This document shows, one piece after another, positions 7,055-63,882 of a DNA stretch of 64,000 nt; the first letter of the stretch is position 1; the number at the start of each line of letters is the position of its first letter. The notes beneath the pieces are model-generated. The model did no database searches, was not told where the DNA came from, and saw nothing but the letters and a program-made list of their open reading frames with translations. Position numbers and translations under genes: made by a program. Source of the stretch: Rugalucina vietnamica (taxonomy: Eukaryota > Mollusca > Bivalvia > Lucinida > Lucinidae); NCBI GenBank assembly GCA_964017185.1, contig OZ024876.1:2122418-2186417 (forward strand), written 5' to 3'.

Positions 7055-7858
7055 ATGAATGGCCCTGAGAAAGCAGTTGACTGTGAAAACAGCGTAGAAA
7101 CAACCCAAATCATTCCTGATCATGAGTTAAGTGATTTGAACGGAACAGAACCGTCCACAAAATCTGAATCATCACTCAGTTTGAGTTTCCAGTCAGATTT
7201 GTCAAATTTGTCCAACAGCCAACTAGATTTCAATGATCCGTTTGAGGGAATATTATATAGAACAGACGTGTTGGAATCAAAATATAGTATCTCGTTTGTT
7301 TCAAGCGTGCTCTTTGACTCGTTTAAAAATAAGATGCACGCAGATTATATGAGCAGTGTAGATATTGACGAGACCACTTTTATGTCAAAATGCGCAACAC
7401 ATATAAATGGTGTTAAATGCGACATCAAATTAGATGCTCATTTTAAAACAGTAGAGCTCAGCGGCATGGGATTCCAAAAATGGAGAGAGGAGCGGTTTCC
7501 TAGAATTACGCAGTTTCTCCTCAAAAGGGTGGTGCAGAAAATGGACAGTATTGTCGAAGGGAGCATCAAGAGTGAGCAGGGACCAACAGAATCGACAGAA
7601 TCGGCAGAATCGGCAAATATAACGTTAAATGGTATACCAATTAGTGACGGGACATCTAAACAGCAATGTGACGTCAACGACAACGTAGCGCCAAGATGTA
7701 ACGTCGCGCAGTTAAACGACGACATAAATGGCGCGCTAAACGGTACCAATGAATTAATGAACGCCGTAGAGGACGACGACCTAGAAGAGAACACTTCTAC
7801 ATCTAACACAAAAAAAACAGGAATGTCTCCAAGCACCGCAGCAAATAATAGATTTTGA
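7055..7858 (+). pseudogene. LINE ORF1, N-terminal part (frameshifted)
   Basis: A 267-codon frame, acidic and Ser/Asn rich, starting at the first ATG after the leader. No named domain was seen. Around 140-160 it has FQKWREERFPRI, then TESTESAESA. It ends early because a run of seven or more A near 7808-7818 appears to have slipped. The adjacent frame continues downstream without a stop into the ORF at 7920, so both pieces were probably one ORF1 of roughly 790 residues. In living elements ORF1 protein binds the RNA and forms the retrotransposition particle. Confidence 0.65.
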
Positions 7859-7919
7859 TGTAGCCGGAGAAGAGTATACTGCGGAAAATATTACTGATAG
7901 GTATAAGCGGACTGAACTT

Positions 7920-9446
7920 TTGGATGGCTCTCAGAAAGTAAACCGACAGCTTGTTCAAGACTTTCAAACCCAATATCTAGACAACACATCAGTTCCCCCA
8001 TTCACGTCTACTCCGAATGTACAACGTTTAGATGGCGCAAATCATGCTACTGCTTCAGCCAGTGAGAATGTCTGTTGGTTAATGAACAGAATACAGCAAC
8101 TTGATAACGACATAAAGACAATCAAACAAGATGTTATTAAACAGATGGAATGTAAGCTCACTGAACTCAAAGCTTCCTTGATTGCAATGATCGAGAAATC
8201 CAGTTCACAGAAAACATATGCCGACGCTATCGGAAGCCCAAAACCGGTATCTAGAACAGAAAACCAATCCACTGAAAACAGTCAAAATATTGAAGATTCC
8301 TGTTTTATTGATGAAGGCTACGGAGACCAGTCCGGAATAGATGCTAAAAGAAGTTCGTCCGAGACTCGTCTGAAAACTGTGTATGTCGCTGATGACAGAG
8401 AAAATACCCAACAGCAGATTCACATCCTGACACCGATAGCCCCATCAGAAACTCAACAACGTGATCAAGCGATGGCGATTCAACATCACGGGCCAGCAAT
8501 ACATACTCAACGCCATGGGCCAGCGAATATAGCTCAACGCCATCGGCCAGCGATTAGAACTCAACGCCATGGGCCAGCGATCAGAACACAACACAATGTG
8601 CCAACGACCAGAACTCAATTACCTGTAGAAAATCCTCAGCCAGTAACTGTACGAGTGACTAACAGAAACCAGTCATTTAGTCGGTCACTTCCAAATACCA
8701 GCCGGAACTTTTCAGGTTTTGCACCCACAACTAGAGATAAAACTTTAATTGTAGGCGATTCAATAATGAAGGGGATCAATTACAGGGGATTACAGAAGGA
8801 TGTTAAGATATGCACAAGAAGCGGTGCTACCATTGGTGATTTATGGGAAGAGATATCCATATATGATCTGAAGTCTTTTGCGCGAATCATAATCTGTATA
8901 GGGGGAAATGACTGCTCTAGCAGAAGGGATACCACCGAGTTCGAAGAGAAGTATGACCAGCTGATAGGATTTATCAAAAGTGTCAACAAAGATTGCTTGG
9001 TTTATGTTAGTAAAATAGTACCCAGAGGAGACGTTGATGTTTCATCATATAACAGCTCGATCCTGCGAATTGTGGACCACTGGGCAATGCATAACGTTTA
9101 CTGCATTGGTGATTCGCATGAACTTTTCTTTGGAAAAGATCGGATGCCCTTGAGTAGATACTACTATAAGGACGGTGTACACCTATCACACTCAGGGACA
9201 AAACGATTACTGGATGCGTGGAATAGGCATGTACCGATTGTTCAGGACTATACTCAGTGTGTATATAAAGCCTCAAGATCTCCGAGAGTGATGAATAGAC
9301 AAAGGCCGACCAATAATCCCGGAAGACATGATGACTACAATACAGGGCGTTATAGAAACAATGGACAAAGGGGAAATGGTAATCGTCGATGTTACGGTTG
9401 CCACATGCAAGGACATATTTTGGCCGAATGCTGGAACTCACAATAG
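7920..9446 (+). CDS. LINE ORF1, SGNH hydrolase and CCHC zinc knuckle part, 508 aa
   Basis: Residues about 55-95 form a coiled coil (RIQQLDNDIKTIKQDV). Residues about 185-230 carry 11-residue repeats of the QRHGPAI type. Residues about 277-440 form an SGNH/GDSL hydrolase: LIVGDSIMKG (block I, nucleophile Ser), CIGGNDC (block III, Gly/Asn) and KDGVHLSHSG (block V, Asp/His). Near the C-terminus CYGCHMQGHILAEC is a CCHC knuckle. All catalytic blocks look intact. Esterase domains are known in ORF1 of CR1-group LINEs; their substrate is uncertain. The start shown is only the first Met in a frame that stays open upstream to the frameshift near 7815. Confidence 0.8.
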   Translation: MDGSQKVNRQLVQDFQTQYLDNTSVPPFTSTPNVQRLDGANHATASASENVCWLMNRIQQLDNDIKTIKQDVIKQMECKLTELKASLIAMIEKSSSQKTYADAIGSPKPVSRTENQSTENSQNIEDSCFIDEGYGDQSGIDAKRSSSETRLKTVYVADDRENTQQQIHILTPIAPSETQQRDQAMAIQHHGPAIHTQRHGPANIAQRHRPAIRTQRHGPAIRTQHNVPTTRTQLPVENPQPVTVRVTNRNQSFSRSLPNTSRNFSGFAPTTRDKTLIVGDSIMKGINYRGLQKDVKICTRSGATIGDLWEEISIYDLKSFARIIICIGGNDCSSRRDTTEFEEKYDQLIGFIKSVNKDCLVYVSKIVPRGDVDVSSYNSSILRIVDHWAMHNVYCIGDSHELFFGKDRMPLSRYYYKDGVHLSHSGTKRLLDAWNRHVPIVQDYTQCVYKASRSPRVMNRQRPTNNPGRHDDYNTGRYRNNGQRGNGNRRCYGCHMQGHILAECWNSQ

Positions 9447-9557
9447 GGGTTTGGCACAATAGCCACTAGTGTAAATACACACTCACATTCATTTTATGAC
9501 AGAAATCAATTTGAAGTTCTTGAAAGTATATGTAATGCGTGTAATACTTTACAGTGT

Positions 9558-9800
9558 TTGTGCCATGACACTTCTTCAGAGCTGGACTTGTTGAGTTACG
9601 ATGTCGTATCAAAAAGTAATGACGAAAATGAATTATCAGAAAAAGTTTCATTTACTACTTGTATTAGTCAAGAAACATGCTCAACTCAGCAACATTTAAT
9701 TAATGCAAATGACGATGTTGAAATTGTTTTTGATGATGACCGTTTACTGCCTCCTCCTACTCCTTCTTCTTCTTCCTTTTCTTCTTCTTCTCTTTCTTCT

Positions 9801-9832
<32 letters not shown>

Positions 9833-11558
9833 TTCTTCTTCTTCTTCTTCTTCACAGAATTCAAGTAGATTGACGTCTTTAAATACTATCACAAATTCTG
9901 AGAGTAAAAATGAATTCACATGTACGTCTAATTTGAGACCTGAAAATCCACTTTCGCTGAATTTAAAGAAAAAAGGTTTTAACATAGGTCATTTAAATAT
10001 ACAAGGTTTATGTGGAGATCATCTAAATAAGTTTTCAGAAGTTTCGGCATTGCTAACAAGTAAAGATAATGAAAAGTTACATATTTTCGGTATGAGCGAA
10101 ACTAAGTTAAAGAATCACAAATTGACAAGAACGTTTAAAATTAAAGGTTTTCATACTCCTTTTAGAAAAGATAATGACTCTAATGGCGGTGGAGGTATTA
10201 TTGTATATGTTAGAGATAATATTAATGCAAAACGACGGGAAGACTTGGAAACGAATGGTATTTCATGTTTATGGCTTGAGATTTCGCCTGATAAAGGTAA
10301 ACCATTTTTAGTTGGAAATATGTATAGGCCACCCGATTCTAGAATTGAATATAATGACAGGTTTGAGGAATTTATAGATACTGTTTTGAATGAAGAAAAA
10401 GAGTTTATTCTGATGGGCGATATAAATAAAAATTTACTCAATAGTGATACTGACCGGGAATGGGGAAATTTCACAACATCCTTAGGCCTAACTCAGCTAG
10501 TAAATGAACCAACTAGAGTAACTAGCGACTCTAGAACTCTTATTGACCATATATACACTAATAATGAAGATAATATACAATGTATTAAGGTTGAGAAATT
10601 GTGTCTGAGTGACCATTATGGTATATTTTGCAATCGATCTGCTCACGTCTCTTTTGAAAAGAATGATGAACATCAATATATTACTTACAGGTCATTTAAA
10701 ATGTTTGATGAACCTCGCTTTCTGAACGATCTTGCTATGGTTCCTTGGGAAATAATTGAAAGTTTTGATTCAATCGATGATATAGTCTCAGTGTGGACAT
10801 CGCTGTTCACAGAAATTCTTGACAAACACGCGCCTGTTAAAACTCAAAGGGTCAAACATAAATATCAGCCGGAATGGCTGACTCCAGAAATATTGGATTT
10901 AATGAAAGAACGCAATAAATGTAAACTAAATGGTAATATTTCTGCATACAAAATTCTAAGAAATAAGATCTCAACGTTAATAGGTATAGCAAAAAAGGAT
11001 GCGTATAGATCGAAAATTGAAGATGGCAAATCTGATCCTAGAAATATCTGGAAATTATTTCAAGACTTTGGTATGAATAAAAAGGAAAGTGAAAATAAAT
11101 CCAATATAAAGTTAAAATCAGATGACAAACTTGTTACAAACCAGATAGACTTGACTGAAGTTTTCAATGATTACTTCGTCAATATAGCATCGAAATTAAA
11201 AGAACCCCCAGCTAAGACGGATTTTGCCAAGCTAAATAATTATGTTTCTGCTAAGGTCCCACTTGGTACGGAATTCAAAATTCCATTGACAAATCATATT
11301 TTCGTTAAAAAGTTTTTGACAAGTTTAAATGTAAACAAATCTACAGGTCTCGACAATATAGGTCCAAAAATTCTAAAATTGTCTGCAGATGTCATAACAC
11401 CAAGCATTTTATACATGGTTAATAAAAGCATATCATTAAGTCAATTCCCAGATTTATGGAAAGAAGCTAAGGTAAAACCATTGTTTAAATCTGGAAATAA
11501 AGATGATATTAATAATTACCGACCAATTTCAATATTGCCAACAATTTCAAAACATTGA
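9558..11558 (+). pseudogene. LINE ORF2, endonuclease and start of reverse transcriptase (frameshifted)
   Basis: Residues 1-115 contain a run of about 30 Ser from a TTC/TCT repeat (about 9757-9852). The apurinic-type endonuclease follows at about 140-375: GHLNIQGL, GMSETKLKNH (catalytic Glu), NMYRPPDS, ILMGDINKNL (Asp/Asn) and CLSDHYG (Asp-His). A linker with RNKCKL and IWKLFQDFG leads to the RT at about 590 (LDNIGPKIL, NNYRPISILP). The frame then shifts near 11550 and continues at 11503-11949. The endonuclease nicks target DNA and the RT copies the RNA at the nick. Confidence 0.85.
9757..9852 (+). repeat. TTC/TCT triplet repeat encoding poly-Ser in ORF2
   Basis: An almost pure CTT/TCT repeat inside the LINE ORF2, read as a Ser run in frame. 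It also creates a long Glu-run frame on the other strand, which is not a gene. Confidence 0.9.
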
Positions 11559-11939
11559 AAAATGGGTGGAAAAGCAGTTTTCTCAATATTTGAATGATTT
11601 TAACTTATTACACAAGTCTCAAAGTGGATTTCGTCCGAGGCACTCGACTGAATCCGCTCTAATTCTCATGGTAGATTCTTGGCTTAAGGCTATAAACGAA
11701 GGAAAGATAGTAGGCTGTGTTTTAGTTGATTTTCGTAAGGCTTTTGATTTAGTGGACCATGAAATTCTTTTAAGAAAATTAAAATGTTATAAATGCAATG
11801 ACTCGTGCTTATCTTGGTTTGAATCTTATTTATGTAATCGGAAACAGCGTGTATCTCTGAATAATCATCTATCATCTACATCCGATGTTATACATGGCGT
11901 TCCCCAGGGGTCTATTTTAGGTCCATTACTATTTTTGAT
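11503..11939 (+). pseudogene. LINE ORF2, central reverse transcriptase
   Basis: Continues the RT after the frameshift: SQSGFRPRHSTESAL, VLVDFRKAFDLVDH (first catalytic Asp), HGVPQGSILGPLLFL. The frame breaks exactly where the second LINE is inserted, and the next expected block (FINDLPLYL) resumes at about 13390. The boundary falls at the 12-bp target duplication. Confidence 0.85.
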
Positions 11940-13396
11940 GTTTCAATAGACATGATCTTCACAGCAAGACAGCTTCAGGAGAAATGCCAAGAACAGAATG
12001 TAGATCTATACATGACGTTTGTTGACCTCACCAAAGCTTTTGACACTGTTAGTCGTGATGGACTCTGGAAAATCATGGCCAAGTTTGGCTGTCCACCCAG
12101 ATTCATAGCTATGGTGCGGCAGTTTCATGATGGCATGCAGGCACGTGTGCAAAATGATGGAGAGTTCTCTGAACCATTTGAAGTAACAAATGGGGTCAAA
12201 CAAGGCTGTGTTCTGGCACCAACACTGTTCAGCATGATGTTTTCTGCCATGCTTATGGATGCTTTTCAGGACAGTGACACTGGTTTTCCAATCAGGTACC
12301 GTTTTGATGGCAACATATTCAACCTCAGAAGGTTGCAAGCCAAAACTAAGGTCCAGACTGATGTGCTAGATGAGCTCCTCTATGCAGATGATATGGATAA
12401 GAATGCCAACACAGAGGCAAAAATGCAAAGAGCCATGGATCAAGTCTCACAGTCATGTGATAACTATGATCTCACAATCAGCACAAAAAAGACAGAGGTT
12501 GTACACCAACCAGCCCCCGGAAAACCATATAATGAACCAACCATCACTGTGAATGGGCAAAAACTGAAAGTTGTTGACAAGTTCACCTACCTGGGAAGCA
12601 CTCTCTCCAGAGCAGTGCATATTGATGATGAGATCACTGCCAGAATTGCAAAAGCTAGTGTGGCATTCGGAAGACTCCGTGCAAATGTCTGGGAGCGAAA
12701 TGGAATCAAGCTTGACACCAAGCTGAAAGTCTACAAGGCTGTGGTACTGCCAACCCTCTTGTATGCATGTGAGACCTGGACAGTATACCAACGCCATGCA
12801 AAGAGACTTAACCATTTCCACTTAAGCTGTTTGAGAAAGTTGTTAAAAATCAAGTGGCAGGACAAGATTCCAGACACAGAGGTCCTGAGGAAAGCAGGGA
12901 TGCAAAGCATGCATACAGTCTTAAAGCTAGCACAGCTAAGATGGACTGGCCATGTTATAAGAATGCCTGATGCGCGACTTCCAAAGAAAGTTTTCTATGG
13001 AGAACTACAGGAAGGAAAGCGCTCTCAAGGTGGCCAGAAGAAACGCTACAAAGACACCCTCAAAGCCTCTCTGAAGGATTTCGAAATACCAATGGGGTCC
13101 TGGGAACAGACTGCACAGGAGCGATCAAAGTGGCGAGGTCTCATCAACAAAGGAGCAGCTCTCTATGAAAAGAAGAGAATCTGTGAAGCTGAAAGAAAGC
13201 GAAGAGAGCGCAAAGCCAAAACAAATGTGCCACCAGCAGACTCTATGACATTGACTTGCTCTACTTGCAACCGACAGTTTAGAGCCAGAATTGGCCTAGT
13301 CAGCCATCAAAGAACTCACCAACACACATCAGCACAATTCAAGAAATAATGATGGTCTTTCTCATTAGTGAGAGACGAACTATCACTATTTTTGAT
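11928..13396 (+). mobile_element. Second LINE, 5'-truncated, nested in the CR1-like LINE
   Basis: The 12-mer ACTATTTTTGAT occurs at 11928-11939 and 13385-13396, a direct target-site duplication. The inserted DNA is 11940-13384. Its 3' end GAGACGAACTATC is the same as that of the related element at 50864-53356. The 5' end is cut inside the RT domain, as expected for incomplete target-primed reverse transcription. Over the shared part the two copies differ at only a handful of residues, so both are recent. Confidence 0.9.
11952..13349 (+). CDS. Truncated reverse transcriptase with C-terminal C2H2 finger, 465 aa
   Basis: An open RT frame lacking the endonuclease and the first RT blocks. It shows TFVDLTKAFDTVSRDG (catalytic Asp), GVKQGCVLAPTLFS, ELLYADDMD (the YADD box), KFTYLGSTLSR and an ARLPKKVFYGE-type tail. 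It ends with CSTCNRQFRARIGLVSHQRT, a C2H2 zinc finger. The first ATG is just the first Met inside the truncated element. The catalytic Asp residues are intact, but without endonuclease it could not move by itself. I do not assign a clade with confidence. Confidence 0.85.
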   Translation: MIFTARQLQEKCQEQNVDLYMTFVDLTKAFDTVSRDGLWKIMAKFGCPPRFIAMVRQFHDGMQARVQNDGEFSEPFEVTNGVKQGCVLAPTLFSMMFSAMLMDAFQDSDTGFPIRYRFDGNIFNLRRLQAKTKVQTDVLDELLYADDMDKNANTEAKMQRAMDQVSQSCDNYDLTISTKKTEVVHQPAPGKPYNEPTITVNGQKLKVVDKFTYLGSTLSRAVHIDDEITARIAKASVAFGRLRANVWERNGIKLDTKLKVYKAVVLPTLLYACETWTVYQRHAKRLNHFHLSCLRKLLKIKWQDKIPDTEVLRKAGMQSMHTVLKLAQLRWTGHVIRMPDARLPKKVFYGELQEGKRSQGGQKKRYKDTLKASLKDFEIPMGSWEQTAQERSKWRGLINKGAALYEKKRICEAERKRRERKAKTNVPPADSMTLTCSTCNRQFRARIGLVSHQRTHQHTSAQFKK

Positions 13397-14294
13397 TTTT
13401 ATTAATGACTTGCCTTTATACTTACAAAACAATACATCTACAATTGATTTGTATGCTGATGATACTACTATATATTATAGTGGCAGTGATAAATTAATGC
13501 TAGAAAGAAATTTGCAGAAGTCTCTTGACTGCCTTCAAATATGGTGTCGAGAAAATGGCATGATTTTAAACACAGATAAAACCAAAGTCATGCTTATAAC
13601 CAGCAGGCAAAAGCGAATTAACTTGAATAATGCGGTTTTGAACCTCCAGTACAATGATATTGATATAGATATTACCACGTGTGACAAAATCTTGGGTATT
13701 CATGTTGACAATAATCTGACGTGGAACGATCACTTTAATTTTTTGTCTAAAAAGTTGTCCTCACACTTGTGGCTTTTGAGCAAAATAAGAATTTATCTAT
13801 CTATTGAACACAGAGTACTTTTCTACAATGCGTATATCAAACCTCACATTGACTATTGTAGTTTAATCTGGAGTAACACGTCCAGCACGAATATAAGCAA
13901 AATAACTAGATTGCAAAGAAGGGCATGCAAGCTGATTTTGGGGCATGAATATAATGGCTTGCCCGAGGCACTCGAAAAATTAAAGATGTTGTCATTTGAT
14001 CAAAGTATTTTCCTCAGTAAAGCAAAAATTATGTATAAAATTCACAACAATTTGGCCCCTAGTTATTTGAATGAAATGTTTTTAATGCGAGATGCAAATC
14101 TTGATAATACAACTTCCAATTTAAGGTCTGTCGCAAATAAAAATTTTGTAGTTCCACTAGCAAAATGTAATCTTTTTAAAGGTAGCTTGACTTATTCAGG
14201 TGTAATTATTTGGAATAGTATCCCTGTCAGTATAAAGGATTCCTCATCCTTACAAATTTTCGTTAATAGGTGTACTGAGTGGCTTCTACATTAA
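13385..14294 (+). pseudogene. LINE ORF2, C-terminal reverse transcriptase part
   Basis: RT resumes after the nested LINE: FINDLPLYL, then LYADDTTIYY (YADD catalytic box), LNTDKTKVMLI, KILGIHVDNNLTW, YNAYIKPHIDYCSLIW and RACKLILG. It ends with SGVIIWNSIPVSIKD and a TAA. These blocks are in the order usual for CR1/L2-type ORF2 C-terminal halves. Confidence 0.85.
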
Positions 14295-17373: not shown

Positions 17374-17606
17374 TGAGCCGCCTCATGAGAAAACCAACAA
17401 TGTGGTTTCCGAACAGGTCGGACACAAACCGAGCTGTACAAGCACATAAGATGACTAGAGGCTCGACATTTCGGATTTAGAAAAGTACTATCCGTGTAGC
17501 GAAAACAAAGGCGCTGATCAGCTTCGCGGTCACCGCGAAGCTGATCTGCGTCTTTGTTTTCGCCTATGCAGCCTGAATGATTATTGGTTTTCTCATGATG
17601 CGGCTC
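17374..17606. mobile_element. MITE family A copy just upstream of the EXPERA-like start codon
   Basis: TGAGCCGCCTCATGAGAAAA and complement at the ends; the hairpin is CTTCGCGGTCACCGCGAAG. It ends only 17 bp before the ATG at 17624, so it must form 5' UTR, promoter or the end of an intron of that gene. Confidence 0.92.
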
Positions 17607-17623
17607 AATTTTATATTAGCTAG

Positions 17624-17768
17624 ATGGCACCCAGTATGAATGAGATGCCCAAATGGATGGTGTCATGGTTCTACGCCACCGCTATAATCTGTACGATAGA
17701 TGCCACATTCGTTGTTTTCCGACCGCTCACACTGCCAGGGGGAGCATGGTTTAAATTCTTTTATCCAT
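17624..17768 (+). CDS. EXPERA-like gene, exon 1
   Basis: Codes residues 1-48 plus one base, including the first helix (WFYATAIICTIDATFVVF). Ends CCAT|GTAAGTACTG, a strong donor. The last about 18 bases and the donor are repeated downstream at 44-bp spacing. Confidence 0.75.
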
Positions 17769-20700
17769 GTAAGTACTGTACATTCACTTTTGGTTTAAAT
17801 TCTTTTACCCAAGTACTGGACATGTATTCACTTTCGGTTTAAATTCTTTTACCCATGTAAGTGCTGTACATTTAAGAATTGGCTTAAATTCTTTTACCTA
17901 TTTAAGTACTGTACATTCACTTTTGGTTTAACATGTGCATGTACTATAATTTTCAGACAAATGGTATATAACAGTTGACCAGCGGTACAATGACATCACA
18001 GATTCCTACTCCTATACACAGAGCCTGTAAGTTCACTGACAAATTTAGATTTATGAGTCTGTGGTTTTGTACTTTATACAATTGACTTTTTTTTATTCAG
18101 TTTAACGTCCCTTTCAAGATAACTTCAGCTCATACAGTAGTCGGGGAGAAAACGGGAGAACCCCTGTATACGTTTAGCGAAAACAAAGGTGATGATCAAC
18201 TGTGCAGTTACTGCACAGCTGATCTGCGCCTTTGTTTTCGTCATAGGCAAAAGTCCGGTTTTCTCGTGTCGAGGCTCACTTATGGTCGTGGCGATATGTG
18301 GAAACAGCCTGCCTTCGATTCTTATTTGCGCAGCCATTACATGTATTCTGTGTTATCGGCCAAACGTGGCTCATTTGTTGAAATAAGTGATTATTTTGAA
18401 GTATTTTCGAAAACATAACATTACATACGTTTTTGTGACTAATCAGGCTATGAAATTGTATTCCACAGGATGAACTATGCAGAGGTTGTTCTAAATATTG
18501 TCACACTGATTTTGGTAAGTACGGAAGCTCATTACGAAAACTTGCCCATGCAATATACAGAGATTTTTTAGCTTTAAAAATTGAAAATTTTCAGCTGAAA
18601 AATTTTGATATTTTTCTTATTTTTGCTCAAAACATAGATTGTGGGTACACGTTAGAACCGCCTCGCCGAGGCGGTTCTAACGAGTACCCACAATCTATGT
18701 TTTGGAGCAAAAATAAGAAAAATAGGTATACCCCTGCATACCCCAGTTTTTGTATATAAAAGTGGGGTTTAAGGGGGTAGACGCTTCACGGACATGTTTT
18801 CCTGATGTCATAACTCAGCCTAAAAAGGTTCAGCCAAAATGGCCGTCAAAGGTTCAGCCAAAATGGCCCAGGTTCGATATGGTTTCAATATGAACCGCGT
18901 CGTGGGAAAACTAACAATGAGGATTTTGTTAGGTTCTACACAAACCGACTAGAGGCTTGAGATTTCGGATTTAAGAAGAAGAGAAATTGTACAATCCGTG
19001 TAGCGAAAACAAAGGTGCTGATCAGCTTGGTGGTAAATACCACGAAGCTGATCTGCGTCATTGTTTTAGCCTATGCAACTTGAATTGTTGGTTTTCTCAT
19101 GATGCGGCTCAATTATGTAGTCTAATACGAACTTATTTGTATCTTTTTTTCAACGAGCATTTTGACGCAACGACAATATGCTGTAATTATGGGATCAAGC
19201 GATCGCGCAAGTAAATACGATTTGGCGCTCATGTCACACCAAAGTCCTGGCATTTACCGTCTCAGTAATAACCTCCCATCTCTTTCAGCACTATAGGCGA
19301 TCATGTTACACCAAAGTCATGGCATTTGCCGTCTCAGTAATAACCTCCCATCTCTTTCAGCACTACAGGCGATCATGTCACACCAAAGTCATGGCATTTA
19401 CCATCTCAGTAATAACCTCCCATCTCTTTCAGCACTACAGGCGATCATGTCACACCAAAGTCATGGCATTTACCGTCTCAGTAATAACCTCCCATCTCTT
19501 TCAGCACTACAGACGATCATGTCACACCAAAGTCATGGCATTTACCGTCTCAGTAACCTCCCATCTCTTTCAGCACTACAGGCGATCATGTCACACCAAA
19601 GTCCTGACATTTACCGTCTCAGTAATGACCTCCCATCTCTTTCAGCACTACAGGCGATCATGTCACACCAAAGTCCTGGCATTTACCGTCTCTGTAATGA
19701 CCTCCCATCTCTTTCAGCACTACAGGCGATCATGTCACACCAAAGTCATGGCATTTACCGTCTCTGCAATAACCTCCCATCTCTTTCAGCACTACAGGCG
19801 ATCATGTCATACCAAAGTCATGGCATTTACCGTCTCAGTAACCTCCCATCTCTTTCAGCACTATAGGCGATCATGTTACACCAAAGTCATGGCATTTACC
19901 GTCTCAGTAATGACCTCCCATCTCTTTCAGCACTACAGGCGATCATGTCACACCAAAGTCACGGCATTTACCGTCTCAGTAATGACCTCCCATCTCTTTC
20001 AGCACTACAGGCGATCATGTCACACCAAAGTCATAGCATTTACCGTCTCAATAATAACCTCCCACCTCTTTCAGCACTATAGGCGATCATGTCACACCAA
20101 AGTCCTGGCATTTACCGTCTCAGTAATAACCTCCCATCTCATTCAGCACTACAGACGATCATGTCACACCAAAGTCCTGGCATTTACCGTCTCAGTAATG
20201 ACCTCCCATCTCTTTCAGCACTACAGGCGATCATGTCACACCAAAGTCATGGCATTTACCGTCTCAATAATAACCTCCCATCTCTTTCAGCTCTACAGGC
20301 AATCATGTCACACCAAAGTCCTGGCATTTACCGTCTCAGTAACCTCCCATCTCATTCAGCACTACAAGCGATCATGTCACACCAAAGTCATGGCATTTAC
20401 CGTCTCAATAATAACCTCCCATCTCTTTCAGCTCTACAGGCAATCATGTCACACCAAAGTCCTGGCATTTACCGTCTCAGTAACCTCCCATCTCTTTCAG
20501 CACTATAGGCGATCATGTTACACCAAAGTGATGGCATTTACCGTCTCAATAATAACCTCCCATCTCTTTCAGCACTACAAGCGATCATGTCACACCAAAG
20601 TCATGGCATTTACCGTCTCGGTAATGACCTTCTGGAAGACTGTGCTCTATATCGCCATGTTCTTTGAACTGGCCGGTGGCAAAGACTACCGCCAGGGGAA

Positions 20701-20905
20701 TACCCTGGTACAGGAAATATTCATTGTGTACCTCACCAATGGTGCTTGGATTCTGTTTCCCTACCTCTGCATGGCATCACTGTGGAAGGGGTTGGCGACG
20801 GGAGGTGGCGGTAGTGAGAGGTCGGTTGATAAAGGTTACGTAGAGGTGAAGACGTCACATGGTGTTATGAGAGACCAAGAAGCTAGGCACCGGAAAGGTG
20901 TTTGA
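17624..20905 (+). CDS. EXPERA/emopamil-binding-like membrane protein, four exons
   Basis: Joining 17624-17768, 17957-18026, 18469-18514 and 20573-20905 gives 197 residues with matching phases (1, 2, 0) and GT-AG introns. Four hydrophobic segments lie near 13-33, 73-88, 97-118 and 135-158. ITVDQRYND near 53-61 and NGAW at 143-146 fit EXPERA-type proteins. Human EBP, a sterol isomerase of the endoplasmic reticulum, uses Asn193 and Trp196, with the same spacing. An enzymatic role here is unproven. The ATG follows an in-frame TAG directly. The last exon boundary is amplified upstream (19222-20640), so isoforms with extra 23/24-residue repeats are possible. Confidence 0.75.
17751..17930 (+). repeat. 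44-bp tandem repeat of the exon 1 donor boundary
   Basis: Four imperfect copies of TTAAATTCTTTTAYCCATGT start at 17751, 17795, 17839 and 17884. Copy 1 is the exon end with its donor. Copy 3 keeps GTAAGTGCTG; copies 2 and 4 have lost the GT. Reading on from exon 1 meets a stop at 17840-17842, so unlike the acceptor array these extra donors would not give a longer protein. Confidence 0.8.
17957..18026 (+). CDS. EXPERA-like gene, exon 2
   Basis: Acceptor ATTTTCAG and donor GTAAGTTC. Codes YKWYITVDQRYNDITDSYSY and TQS plus two bases of Leu. Acidic and aromatic, predicted luminal loop or helix cap. Confidence 0.75.
18085..18165 (-). mobile_element. SINE fragment
   Basis: TTTAACGTCCCTTTCAAG, TTCAGCTCATA and GGGGAGAAAACGGGAGAACC match the tRNA-derived SINE at 55687-55926. 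It abuts a truncated family A MITE. Confidence 0.6.
18166..18278. mobile_element. MITE family A, right part
   Basis: Central hairpin CAACTGTGCAGTTACTGCAC and the right end GTTTTCTCGTGTCGAGGCTCA are kept. The left end is missing, replaced by the SINE fragment. Confidence 0.8.
18469..18514 (+). CDS. EXPERA-like gene, exon 3
   Basis: Acceptor TTCCACAG and donor GTAAGTACGG. Codes MNYAEVVLNIVTLIL, the second hydrophobic segment, and ends in phase 0. Confidence 0.75.
18530..18808. mobile_element. MITE family B copy in intron 3
   Basis: One of the best copies: CGAAAACTTGCCCATGCAAT at the left, hairpin arms ATTGTGGGTAC and GAACCGCCTCGCCGAGGCGG around a perfect centre, and CGGACATGTTTTCCTGATG at the right. 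Confidence 0.92.
18891..19111. mobile_element. MITE family A copy in intron 3
   Basis: Left TGAACCGCGTCGTGGGAAAA and right TTTTCTCATGATGCGGCTCA. The hairpin tip is CTTGGTGGTAAATACCACGA, a variant that still pairs. Confidence 0.88.
19222..20640 (+). repeat. 69/72-bp tandem array of the intron 3/exon 4 acceptor boundary
   Basis: About 20 units, each with CTCCCATCTCTTTCAG followed by CACTACAGGCGATCATGTCA and ending ACCGTCTCAGTAATAACC. Nineteen copies of the TTTCAG acceptor were counted by eye; two have CTCATTCAG. Units are 72 bp, or 69 bp where TAA is missing, so all keep one frame. That frame is open from at least 19319 through the real exon 4 to 20905 (528 codons), including the intron-like parts. 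The last unit at 20573 is the true exon 4 start by continuity with the third helix. Confidence 0.9.
20573..20905 (+). CDS. EXPERA-like gene, exon 4 (terminal)
   Basis: Begins after ATCTCTTTCAG and codes the last 110 residues: HYKRSCHTKV, a third helix ending TFWKTVLYIAMFF, FELAGGKDYR, then VYLTNGAWILFPYLCMASLW and a charged tail ending RHRKGV. The Asn and Trp of NGAW and the following Pro fit the EXPERA family end. Confidence 0.8.
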   Translation, partial: HYKRSCHTKVMAFTVSVMTFWKTVLYIAMFFELAGGKDYRQGNTLVQEIFIVYLTNGAWILFPYLCMASLWKGLATGGGGSERSVDKGYVEVKTSHGVMRDQEARHRKGV

Positions 20906-49358: not shown

Positions 49359-50903
49359 AATTGTCATAAAAGCGGTATCTGATTGGAAAACCAGTGTCAC
49401 TGTCCTGAAAAGCATCCATGAGCATGGCAGAAAACATCATGCTGAACAGTGTTGGTGCCATAACACAGCCCTGTTTGACACCTATTCGTCACCTCAAAGG
49501 GTTCAGAGACCTCTCCATCATTTTTCACACGTGCCTGCATGTCATCATGAAAAGGCCGCACAATTGCTATGAATCTGGATGGACAGCCAAACTTGGCCAT
49601 GATTTTCCAGAGTCCATTACGACTACCTGTGTAAAAAGCTTCGGTGAGGTCAACAAACGTCATGACTGTATACCTCGGCATTTCTTCTGCAGCTGTCTTG
49701 CTGTGAAGATCATGTCAATTGTCCCTCTGTCTTTTCTGAACCCACATTGACTTTCTGGGATAAGTCCCTTCTGATCAAGATGAACATTCAGACGATTCAA
49801 CAGAACATTTGCCAGTATCTTCCCAGCAATGCATAGAAGGGAGATGCCTCTGTGGTTGTCACAGACTTAAGGATTTCCTTTCCGCTTGTATAGGTGGATT
49901 ATGGATGCATCCTAAAATTTCCCTCCTCCACATACAATGAAACAAGTCTGTCTGTTTCTCTGCTATGGGTAGCCCTCCACCCCTACCCCACCTCACACCC
50001 CCACAACCTTATAGACCTTGGTAGGAATTGCATCTGCACCTGGAGCTCTGTCAGGTGACAGTTGTTGAACTGCTTTTCTTGTTAGCTGAGAAATAATTGA
50101 CGTGAGCTATGAAATTGTATTAAAGTGAGGAAGAGGTTCTCAGCATCAACCTCAGTCGCTCGTCCTCATCCGACTGCGCCAGAGGCAAGACACAGGTCAA
50201 GGTCTGGAGTTGGGTTTGGGTGCAGTGTATGACCGTAACATCTTTAGTGTCTTGTCGCGCTCTGCATAACAACATGTAGCTGTATTACTTTCCGGACCGT
50301 TGAATCAAAAGATGATTTCTTACGCTCCGTATATCAAATAGTCCTTGCACATCTGGACTAGGCATATCCAGACACACAGGTTTTAGTTTGGAATAACCTT
50401 TTCCTAGATGAATTGCTGGCCACAGCTGAAGAGAACTCAATCTACCCTTTTTAGCTCATCTGAGCCGTTAGGCTCACAAGGTGAGCTTATAGTATACTAG
50501 TACCCGTCGTCATCCACAATGTTCAAACGTCGAAACCGCTGTGCCAATCAAAGCCAAACTTCATCTGGAGCATCCTTAGGAAGGGGGAACGAAAGTTTGT
50601 ACAAGTTGGCTTCTTTAAAAAGAAACTAATGAAAAGGTCAGCAGCCGTTTGTTATAAGATATTCCTTTTGCTATAGATTTCAGTGTTGTTGATTCTCTGG
50701 TTTGTCATTAATTTCGATTTTCATACGTTTCAGTTTCGTTTCCTATACATGAATGTCGTTTCTTGTTATGAACGCTTGACCAGTGTGTGTATCTGTCACT
50801 CAATGCATTGACCAAAATTTCTGATGTTATGGAATCAAAGCCAATACTAAAGGGAACACGATTGATAGTTCGTCTCTCACTAATGAGAAAGACCATCATT
50901 ATT

Positions 50904-52857
50904 TCTTGAATAGTGCTGATGTGTGTTGGTGAGTTCTTTGATGGCTGACTAGGCCAATTCTGGCTCTAAACTGTCGGTTGCAAGTAGAGCAAGTCAATGT
51001 CATAGAGTCTGATGGTGGCACATTTGTTTTGGCTTTGCGCTCTCTTCGCTTTCTTTCAGCTTCACAGATTCTCTTCTTTTCATAAAGACCTGCTCCTTTG
51101 TTGATGAGACCTCGCCACTTTGATCGCTCCTGTGCAGTCTGTTCCCAGGACCCCATTGGTATTTCGAAATCCTTCAGAGAGGCTTTGAGGGTGTCTTTGT
51201 AGCGTTTCTTCTGGCCACCTTGAGAGCGCTTTCCCTCCTGTATTTCTCCATAGAAAACTTTCTTTGGAAGTCGCGCATCAGGCATTCTTATAACATGGCC
51301 AGTCCATCTTAGCTGTGCTAGCTTTAAGACTGTATGCATGCTTTGCATCCCTGCTTTCGTCAGGACCTCTGTGTCTGGAATCTTGTCCTGCCACTTGATT
51401 TTTAACAACTTTCTCAAACAGCTTAAGTGGAAATGGTTAAGTCTCTTTGCATGGCGTTGGTATACTGTCCAGGTCTCACATGCATACAAGAGGGTTGGCA
51501 GTACCACAGCCTTGTAGACTTTCAGCTTGGTGTCAAGCTTGATTCCATTTCGCTCCCAGACATTTGCACGGAGTCGTCCGAATGCCACACTAGCCTTTGC
51601 AATTCTGGCAGTGATCTCATCATCAATATACACTGCTCTGGAGAGAGTGCTTCCCAGGTAGGTGAACTTGTCAACAACTTTCAGTTTTTGCCCATTCACA
51701 GTGATGGTTGGTTCATTATATGGCTTTCCGGGCGCTGGTTGGTGTACAACCTCTGTCTTTTTTGTGCTGATTGTGAGATCATAGTTATCACATGACTGTG
51801 AGACTTGATCCATGGCTCTTTGCATTTTTGCCTCTGTGCTGGCATTCTTATCCATATCATCTGCATAGAGGAGCTCATCTAGCACATCAGTCTGGACCTT
51901 AGTTTTGGCTTGCAACCTTCTGAGGTTGAATATGTTGCCATCAAAACGGTACCTGATTGGAAAACCAGTGTCACTGTCCTGAAAAGCATCCATAAGCATG
52001 GCAGAAAACATCATGCTGAACAGTGTTGGTGCCAGAACACAGCCTTGTTTGACCCCATTTGTTACTTCAAATGGTTCAGAGAACTCTCCATCATTTTGCA
52101 CACGTGCCTGCATGCCATCATGAAACTGCCGCACCATTGCTATGAATCTGGGTGGACAGCCAAACTTGGCCATGATTTTCCAGAGTCCATCACGACTAAC
52201 AGTGTCAAAAGCTTTGGTGAGGTCAACAAACGTCATGTATAGATCTACATTCTGTTCTTGGCATTTCTCCTGAAGCTGTCTTGCTGTGAATATCATGTCT
52301 ATTGTCCCTCTGTCTTTTCTGAATCCACATTGACTTTCTGGGATAAGTCCCGTCTGATCAAGATGAACATTCAGACGATTCAACAGAATTTTTGCAAGTA
52401 TCTTCCCAGCAATTGATAGGAGGGAGATGCCTCTGTGATTGTCACAGACTTGAGGATTTCCTTTCCGCTTGTATAGGTGGATTATGGATGCATCCTTAAA
52501 TTCTTGTGGGATAGCCTCCTTTCTCCACATACAGTGAAACAACTCTGTCTGTTTCTCTGCCATGGGTAGCCCCCCAGCCTTGTAAACTTCGGCAGGAATT
52601 GCATCTGCACCTGGGGCTTTGCCAGATGATAGTTGTTGAACTGCTTTTCTTGTTTCCGTAACGGTAGGAAATTCATCTAACAGAACATTGCACTCTATCT
52701 GTGGAAGTCTGTCGATTGCATCCTCATTGATGCTTGATGGTCGATTAAGCACACTATTGAAGTGTTCTGCCCACCTTTCCAAGATAGCTTCTTTATCTGT
52801 GAGAAGTGTTTCCATCTGCACTGAGCAATGTGGTGGCTCCAGAACTCTTTGGACCAT
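50904..52857 (-). CDS. Reverse transcriptase with C-terminal C2H2 finger, 652 aa
   Basis: Complete RT domain: SSGKAPGADAIPAEVYK, DASIIHLYKRKGNPQVCDNH, RGISLLSIAGKILAKILLNR, CGFRKDRGTIDM, TFVDLTKAFDTV (Asp), GVKQGCVLAPTLFS, LLYADDMDKN (YADD), KFTYLGSTLSR. The tail ends CSTCNRQFRARIGLVSHQRT. The first about 20 residues are out of frame with the element: true ORF2 enters from the frame at 53254 near 52815. Makes cDNA from LINE RNA; without endonuclease this copy is not autonomous. The stop follows LFKK at about 50899. Confidence 0.88.
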
Positions 52858-53345
52858 AAATGGTTTTCAGTGCATCATGAAATTTCTTCATGTCCTTTCT
52901 ATCCGCAAAAGACTGAATTTCTTCTGTTTTCTTCCTCAGCCAAGAATCTTGCATGTCCCTAAGCTTGGTCTGGACTGTCTTACAAATGTTGCTGTAGGCT
53001 GCTTTCTTTGATACTGAGCTAGTATCATCTTGATGTGCCTTGTGCAATCGGTGCTTTTCTTCAAGAAGCCTCTGAATTTCGTCATCATTCTCATCAAACC
53101 AGTCTTGATGTTTGCGAGATGGATGGCCTAAGGTGCTTGCAGCTGAAAAAAGAACTGTTTTATGGAAAACTGTCCAGTTTTCTTCGGGGTCCTCTGAACT
53201 GAGATTCATTGCATCCAGTTGGTTGCAAATGTCTGTTAAGAAATCTTGTCTCATGCTGTCTTTATTCAGCTTTGAGACATCCAGTCTCTTAGGAGCTTTC
53301 TTGCCTTGAGGTCGCCTCGCAGGCTGTATTCTTAGGTTGAGTTTG
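52793..53345 (-). pseudogene. LINE ORF2 segment between endonuclease and RT
   Basis: Open from the element's 5' end: VSKLNLRIQP, RRPQGKKAPKRLDV, then (from Met at 53254) QDFLTDICNQLDAMN, HPSRKHQDWFDENDDEI, YSNICKTVQTKLRDMQDSWL and MKKFHDALKTIYGPKSSG. These are the linker blocks of this LINE type. A frameshift near 52815 separates it from the RT frame. Confidence 0.8.
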
Positions 53346-61547: not shown

Positions 61548-63882
61548 TTAAATTTCAAGTTTTATCAATATTCCAAAAACAAGAAAGTCAGAATGTTTGT
61601 GTGTTTTATCACATGGTTACAGAACATAATCCTAGCAATGATTTGATACCAATATCAGCTCTCTAGAGCTCTTGGTCACCGAGATATTAGCAATTTTACT
61701 GGTATACCTCCTTCCTTTGGTAGTGATTTTTCTGATATAACTTATGTTTTCTTAAATATTTGAGCATAAAGAAAGCAAGCTTGTTTATATATTATATTAC
61801 AGGATTGTAGAATATTGTCATAGCAATCATTTGATACCAATTTCAGCTCTCTAGGACACTGGGTTGTCGAGATATAAACGTTTACATTGGTATACCCCCT
61901 CCGTTTTTCTTTGAGTTTTATCTAATATTAAAAGTTCTCATCAATATTTGCACAACAAAAAAGTTCGATTATTTATATGTCTTATCACATGATTATACGG
62001 AACATTATCATACCAATCATTTGATACCAATTTCAGCTCTCTAAAACTATTGGTCAATGAGATATTAGCAATTTTATTGGCATACATCCTTCCTTTGGCA
62101 GTGATTTTTCTGCTATCTCTTATGTTTTCTTAAATATTTGAGCAACAAGAAAGTAAGCTTGTTTATATATCTTATTACATGGTTATAGAATATTGTCAAA
62201 GAAAGCATTTTATACCCATTTCAGCACTCTAGGACATTTGGTTGCTGCGATATAAACGTTTATATTGGTATATCCCCTCCATTTTTCTTTGATTTTTATC
62301 TAATATTTAAAGTTCTCATCAATATTCGAACAACAAGAAAGTTAGATTATTTATATGTCTAATCACACAATTATAGAACATTATCATACCAATCATTTGA
62401 TACCAATTTCAACTCTCTAGAGCAATTGGTCACTGAGATATTAGCAATTTTATTGGTATACCCCCTTCCTTTGACAGTGATTTTATTCTTATATCTGAAG
62501 TTTTCTTAAATATTTGAGCAACAAAAAGTCAGCTTGTTTATATATCTTATTATAAGGTTATAGAATATTGTCAACGCAATCATTTGACACCAATTTCTGC
62601 TCTCTATGGCTTTTGGTTGCTGAGATATAAACATTTCTATAGGTATACCCCCTCAAATTTCTGTGATTTTTCTACTATATTTATTGACTTCATTAAAAGT
62701 CAAACAGCAGAAAAGTCGGATTGTAAATGTATCTTATTTCAGGGTTTTAGAATGTTATCATAGCAATCATTTGTTATAAGTTTCAGCTCTATATGGCTTT
62801 TGGTTGCCGAGATATAAACCTAATATCTGTAGGTATACCCCCTCCAATGTTCTGTGATTTTTCTCTTCTATTGAAAGTTCTTATCAATATTTGAACATCA
62901 AGAAAGTCAGATTCTTTCTGTATCTCATCACATGATTATAGAACATTATCACAACAATCATTTGATACACATCTCAGCTCTCTTAGAGTTTTTGGTCACT
63001 GAGATATTAGCAATTTTGTTTGGTATACCCCCTTCCTTTATCTGTTTCTTTTCTAATATCTGAACTTCTTTTTAATATTTGAGCATTAAGATAGCCAGTT
63101 GTTTATATATCTTACTACATGATTATAAAACATTGCCAAAGCAATCGTTTGATACCTATTTCAGCTCTCTATATCTATCAGTAGCCAAGATACATGTGGT
63201 AATAGAGGTGTACCACATTAATTCCTCTGCTTATAAGGGGTGGGGGTGATCACTCAAATGGACATTAAAGTGATCCTCTGACCAAATTGGCACCCATGAG
63301 CATTTGGTCTAAGGTTGCAAGGTGCATCCTACAACCCACTCAAACCCTTAAATGGCAATAGAGTAAATTTTGATTTTCGTCATTTTCATTAATATTCATG
63401 AAAATGCAAATGAGAAAATTTTCATTAAGGTCCATGGCGTCAACAAATTTGTCAAATAGTATTATTGGTACAATAACAATGAGTCACAATGATAGTTTAG
63501 GCCTGAAATTAGTTTTACAGAGATAATCAATTTTTAAATGTTTCGTTTTTCATTTTAATGTTTTAATAAAAATTCATGAATAAGCTAATTAGATATTTTC
63601 CATTACTTATTATTGGATAAAAGGGCTATGTCTAAGCATTAAAATGAGACTAAGTTCAATGGTCTAGGATAAAAAACAACTGAGATATCTTCAGTTTTCT
63701 ATGTGTACCCCCATTATTAAAACGCAAAAAAAATGAATAATTAGGGTAATATTATGAAACATAGCATAAAACGCAAACGCTTCCACTTCCATATGGCAGA
63801 AAACAGTGTTTGATAGCTTTTTCAATGTACTTTTAGAAAATCATAGTGTACAAAATTCCCCCTGGGGGGAGGGGGGTATGGG

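Follow-up and report, generated by a model that had tools for sequence, protein, structure and literature searches.

The gene considered here lies on contig C8 of the 1.09-Gb genome of the bivalve Rugalucina vietnamica, within a stretch of 64,000 nucleotides that was analysed as a whole (the window), and its intron 3/exon 4 boundary is present in tandem repetition over 19222-20572. This raises the question of whether the spliceosome inserts the repeats into the protein or removes the whole array with the intron. The original prediction for this DNA had hinted at selection or at a real long isoform. The best explanation, which we hold to be probable, is a different one, namely a minisatellite of the type described in amphioxus as a 'mirage', which would be removed with intron 3 and whose open reading frame would simply be tolerated. 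The anatomy of the array, three paralogues without it and the lack of a signal of coding selection are direct results; the choice of splice site, the mechanism of growth and the direction of the change are what we infer.

The gene model has four exons. Its predicted protein, of 193 residues, contains four hydrophobic segments, of which segment 2 is barely over the threshold used, and in the protein frame the array is placed between segments 2 and 3. The splice joints of the model, including the boundary of the array, were inferred from the sequence. The features are the following:

17636..17768, plus strand, exon 1, coding portion beginning with the first ATG (translation, alignments with exon 1 of the paralogues)
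17747..17923, plus strand, donor-side array, in which a unit of about 44 bp, the exon 1 end plus the intron 1 donor, is present four times (Tandem Repeats Finder)
17957..18026, plus strand, exon 2 (sequence, comparison with the paralogues)
18469..18514, plus strand, exon 3, 46 nt (a similar AG-46 nt-GT[AG] candidate between exons 2 and 4 in the three paralogues)
18515..20572, plus strand, intron 3, given use of the last acceptor (sequence)
19222..19288, plus strand, partial copy at the head of the array, acceptor-less, with acceptor 1 as its 3' end (unit cutting)
19289..20572, plus strand, 18 full boundary units, each with 57 (or 54) exon-derived nt followed by TCCCATCTCTTTCAG (Tandem Repeats Finder, unit cutting)
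20573..20905, plus strand, authentic exon 4 as far as the stop codon, preceded by acceptor 19, which ends at 20572 (sequence, paralogues)

Regarding the anatomy of the array, Tandem Repeats Finder places it at 19224-20630 with a period of 72, 19.7 copies, 92% matches and a score of 2401. The array is far beyond chance and its layout is real, as had been claimed. In each unit 15 nt from the end of intron 3, which read TCCCATCTCTTTCAG with single-base variants between copies, are combined with 57 nt from the start of exon 4 (19 codons), so that the 48 exonic bases first proposed are too few. When units were delimited by cutting after each acceptor, 18 full units were obtained over 19289-20572, 14 of them of 72 bp and four of 69 bp, the exon-derived stretch being 54 nt in the 69-bp units against 57 nt in the others. 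These are the two lengths, multiples of three, that had been predicted. The predicted count of nineteen acceptors is also right, but only 17 of them are TTTCAG and the other two are ATTCAG (exon starts 20147 and 20360). Compared with the authentic exon 4, the units show 3-7 differences in up to 57 nt, as a derivation from the gene's own boundary implies, and past codon 19 the authentic exon diverges from them. Among themselves the units have a mean pairwise identity of 94% (range 88-99%), and Tandem Repeats Finder also reports additional, longer periods (285 and 357 bp), which are consistent with unequal turnover of the array. A dispersed repeat as the source of the unit is not favoured, because the genome search with the unit, in which only the best candidates were scored, listed 20 matches and all of them fall inside 19224-20630 (19 in the array and one at the start of exon 4). 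Rfam gave no match within the window.

The reading frame that leads on into exon 4 stays open over 19187-20905, which corresponds to 572 residues, and any of the 19 acceptors, if used, would keep this frame and insert repeats between hydrophobic segments 2 and 3; both points agree with the original prediction. Nevertheless, its statement that stops are lacking in only this frame has to be corrected. In the consensus unit a second forward frame is open as well, which is closed solely by one C-to-T variant found in 4 of the 18 units, and the stops over 19289-20572 in the three forward frames are 0, 34 and 4.

Single-base variants occur 42 times across the 18 full units, and 20 of them are distinct. 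In the gene's frame 14 of these 20 variants are replacements, six are silent and none is a stop, whereas all possible changes with a transition weight of 2 would give around 14.2, 5.0 and 0.8 respectively (70.8%, 25.0% and 4.2%). When the same base changes were placed at random in 20,000 trials, no stop appeared in 56% of the trials (P = 0.56) and the mean number of silent changes was 5.2 (P = 0.42 for six or more). Exon-derived replacement variants fall in 8 of 13 cases on residues common to the paralogue P1, and 13 of the 19 residues are common overall. In these tests, which are of modest power, a distinct variant counts once however often it occurs. Selection for the open frame is not supported, since neither the variant classes in the three frames nor the random placement gave a signal, and the selection or long isoform suggested before finds no backing here. 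As for selection on the acceptors, none of the 20 distinct variants hits the AG, but only around 0.6 hits are expected (2 of 72 sites) and nothing follows from this. The open frame thus seems to be tolerated rather than selected, because a 72-bp unit that is coding by descent in 57 bp, together with a length variant of 3 bp, would be enough to maintain it. The remaining five codons of the unit are probably for the most part pyrimidine tract, which would rarely give stops.

Three tandem paralogues of the gene are found on contig C1 of the same genome. Local matches have 40-44% identity in two paralogues, with one exon 2 likewise at 44%, and 22-36% in the third. Exons 1 and 4 gave tblastn matches in all three and exon 2 a separate match in two, and a candidate for exon 3 is present in all three; it was chosen for its likeness among 2, 4 and 1 candidates, the search having been restricted to a length of 46 nt. 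Furthermore, the exon 4 acceptor is in the same phase in the three paralogues, as judged by eye. Their matching exon structure supports the gene model as predicted from the sequence. At the exon 4 boundary of the paralogues Tandem Repeats Finder detected no array with a score of 50 or more; therefore, as far as paralogues of the same genome can tell, the array most simply arose in this gene. That this gene gained intron 3 is not favoured, as the three paralogues, by eye, share the phase of the acceptor and have the 46-nt exon candidate upstream. In the paralogue P2 exon 4 opens with around a dozen residues that do not align, and these are not copies of the repeat.

The array is not the only repeated boundary of the gene; the other one is absent from the original prediction. 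The donor-side array at the end of exon 1 has a Tandem Repeats Finder score of 204, whereas 500 Markov shuffles of 17400-18600 reached 51 at best and 96 of them had any array scoring at least 30. Its copies are degenerate: by eye, a GTAAGT-like donor is kept in two of the four and lost in the other two. The unit, of about 44 bp, is not a multiple of three. Both a 5' and a 3' intron boundary of one gene are consequently repeated, namely the donor of intron 1 and the acceptor of intron 3.

Arrays of this kind have been described before. According to the excerpts of two amphioxus papers (PMC3087553, PMC3902484), on which the following comparisons with amphioxus are based, mirages are minisatellites across intron/exon boundaries in the globins BflGb6 and BflGb9, Adh3 and troponin C, and PGBD5 has similar imperfect repeats. 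They include donor-side cases and keep the AG or GT in many, not all, copies, and the boundary repeats of the globin, Adh3 and troponin C genes are reported to leave the mRNA normal. The closest likeness is with BflGb6, where the 3' end of an intron is repeated together with the 5' part of the next exon. However, BflGb6 has 6 and 3 units of 150-160 bp in two haplotypes, compared with the 18 full units of 69 or 72 bp found here; and unlike the amphioxus mirages, as the excerpts present them, all the units here are open in the gene's frame and one gene carries both donor and acceptor arrays.

In humans, excerpts of PMC2630376 and PMC1395315 describe a 31-bp variable number tandem repeat (VNTR) at exon 13/intron 13 of CBS, a boundary minisatellite with 16-21 copies that varies among people. 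The copy number is similar to that of our array, but by its coordinates the CBS repeat, with its 31-bp unit, affects a donor boundary and ours an acceptor boundary. Another CBS variant, 844ins68, is a duplicated junction whose distal site is strongly favoured, with a normal mRNA (PMC2630376); the text terms these sites donors, and 3' splice site selection is the expression used in a paper that it cites. In that case there is one additional copy, far from the number present in our array. Finally, PMC2891723 and PMC4974935, for example, deal with intron gain by tandem duplication and tie duplication to changes in intron structure. Those cases create a new intron position, whereas here intron 3 appears to be common to the paralogues and only its acceptor end was multiplied.

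The unit of our array spans the boundary and comes from the boundary of its host gene, and both boundary types are affected, as in mirages. Repeats of this type are unusual but were known before, the amphioxus mirage being the closest kind. What sets the present case apart is that 19 acceptors and a frame without interruption are found together in a gene with arrays at a donor as well as at an acceptor. The earlier assertion that no case with this exact layout had been described holds for the details and, given BflGb6 and CBS in the excerpts mentioned, fails for the kind. In the literature searched, where the mollusc-directed searching was narrow and mainly covered open papers, no boundary-spanning array was found in molluscs or in this gene family. 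At 1.09 Gb the genome is around double that of amphioxus, where mirages were described, and on this ground alone they may occur more widely.

How would such an array be handled by the cell? The explanation that we propose is that a duplicated intron/exon boundary seeded the array, which would then have been enlarged by slippage or unequal exchange. The spliceosome would join exon 3 mostly to the last, authentic acceptor at 20572, a step that we regard as quite likely by analogy with the known cases, and the array would leave with intron 3, so that the protein would be unchanged. At all 19 acceptors a branch-point-like TAATAAC, TAATGAC, CAATAAC or AGTAAC can be recognised around 18 nt before the exon, the set of motifs having been chosen by eye; a plain YTNAY search finds TTTAC instead, around 30-33 nt upstream, at 18 of the 19.

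Several observations weigh against the removal of the array with the intron as a silent element. The AG is kept in the 19 acceptors. Ten of the other 18 acceptors are identical to the last one over 20 nt upstream, and acceptors 15 and 17 are so over 30 nt, while copy 16 is identical to exon 4 over the first 47 nt. Only the combination of the 30 nt upstream and the 3 nt downstream of the last acceptor is matched by no other copy. Since neither flank alone singles out the last acceptor, its exclusive use would probably need positional or distal cues. Moreover, the number of variants is just 20 and this leaves the tests for selection with little power. A title in the reference list of PMC2630376 links the 31-bp VNTR to reduced CBS activity, and therefore boundary arrays need not be silent. 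With 19 near-identical acceptors in series, nature offers an experiment on splice-site choice where the alternatives hardly differ. If a normal mRNA is made, the position or signals in the downstream exon probably decide the choice, and variation of the array between individuals would supply natural replicates.

Among the rival explanations, the first is a ladder of isoforms, in which several acceptors are used, 0-18 inserts of 23 or 24 residues are added and selection keeps the units in frame and free of stops. An open frame and unit lengths in multiples of three all along the array are what such a ladder predicts, and the near identity of the acceptors, with the last one unique on neither side, suits it as well. 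Nevertheless, silent changes are not in excess and stops are not detectably depleted, the consensus unit has a second open frame, the three paralogues have no array at their exon 4 boundary, and a normal mRNA is reported, in the excerpts of the papers cited, for several similar loci. Therefore we consider the ladder unlikely. If it were true, 19 competing in-frame acceptors in one transcript would yield a series of lengths of a membrane protein, and the array length, perhaps varying between individuals or cells, would tune the length of the protein with the frame intact.

The anatomy is also the same as in the model that the amphioxus papers, in the excerpts, put forward for globins, and the array could accordingly be an early stage of gene remodelling in which an inner copy is later recruited as a new exon. 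However, intron 3 looks old, to judge by eye from the same-phase acceptor of the paralogues, the intron-derived part is just 15 nt per unit and no new exon is apparent in the genomic sequence of the locus, which makes this reading very improbable. The least probable is an assembly artefact that inflated the copy number of the array or created it: tandem arrays are generally known to be easily mis-assembled, but units that differ to the extent found here (mean identity 94%, range 88-99%) and the 285- and 357-bp periods are unlike a simple stutter. The mirage-type minisatellite removed with intron 3 thus continues to be our preferred explanation.

With respect to the identity of the protein, the label 'EXPERA-like' given in the original prediction is weakly supported by sequence comparison. 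The 193-residue protein has no match to PF05241 (EBP/EXPERA) up to E 10 in hmmscan against Pfam, which returned just two matches below the cut-off, both to other families, and a genome search with PF05241 found six places, none of them at this gene. What can be said in favour of the label is a local match of the protein to a single locus of this genome that belongs to the EBP family, with 30% identity in 54 aligned positions and E 0.002, a value that comes from a set of six loci of which two overlap. In the PDB no sequence matched the protein up to E 10.

The survey for boundary arrays with Tandem Repeats Finder covered the window together with the loci of the EBP family and of the paralogues (L009-L014, L035 and L036). 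Two of the arrays surveyed were read in context and, by eye, neither looks like a boundary array: the 71-bp repeat of L011 lies beyond an exon, after a microsatellite, and the 48-bp repeat common to L010 and L013 is palindromic.

Around the gene there are three related imperfect hairpins, GCGAAAACAAAGG...CTTTGTTTTCG, at 17489-17562 (upstream of the ATG), 18167-18240 (intron 2) and 18993-19066 (intron 3), which resemble a miniature inverted-repeat element. Intron 3 also contains an inverted repeat of 55 nt with a spacer of 1 nt (18611-18721). Elsewhere in the window, 7785-14294 holds reverse-transcriptase frames like those of a long interspersed nuclear element (LINE), apparently interrupted at 11865-13349 by a piece of another element which, by eye, closely resembles the minus-strand frame 50899-52866. 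A 27-bp repeat of 4.8 copies (8490-8618) lies within a long open frame adjoining the LINE-like frames, and 61552-63178 is taken up by a satellite-like array, for which periods of 188 bp and of 378 bp were detected.
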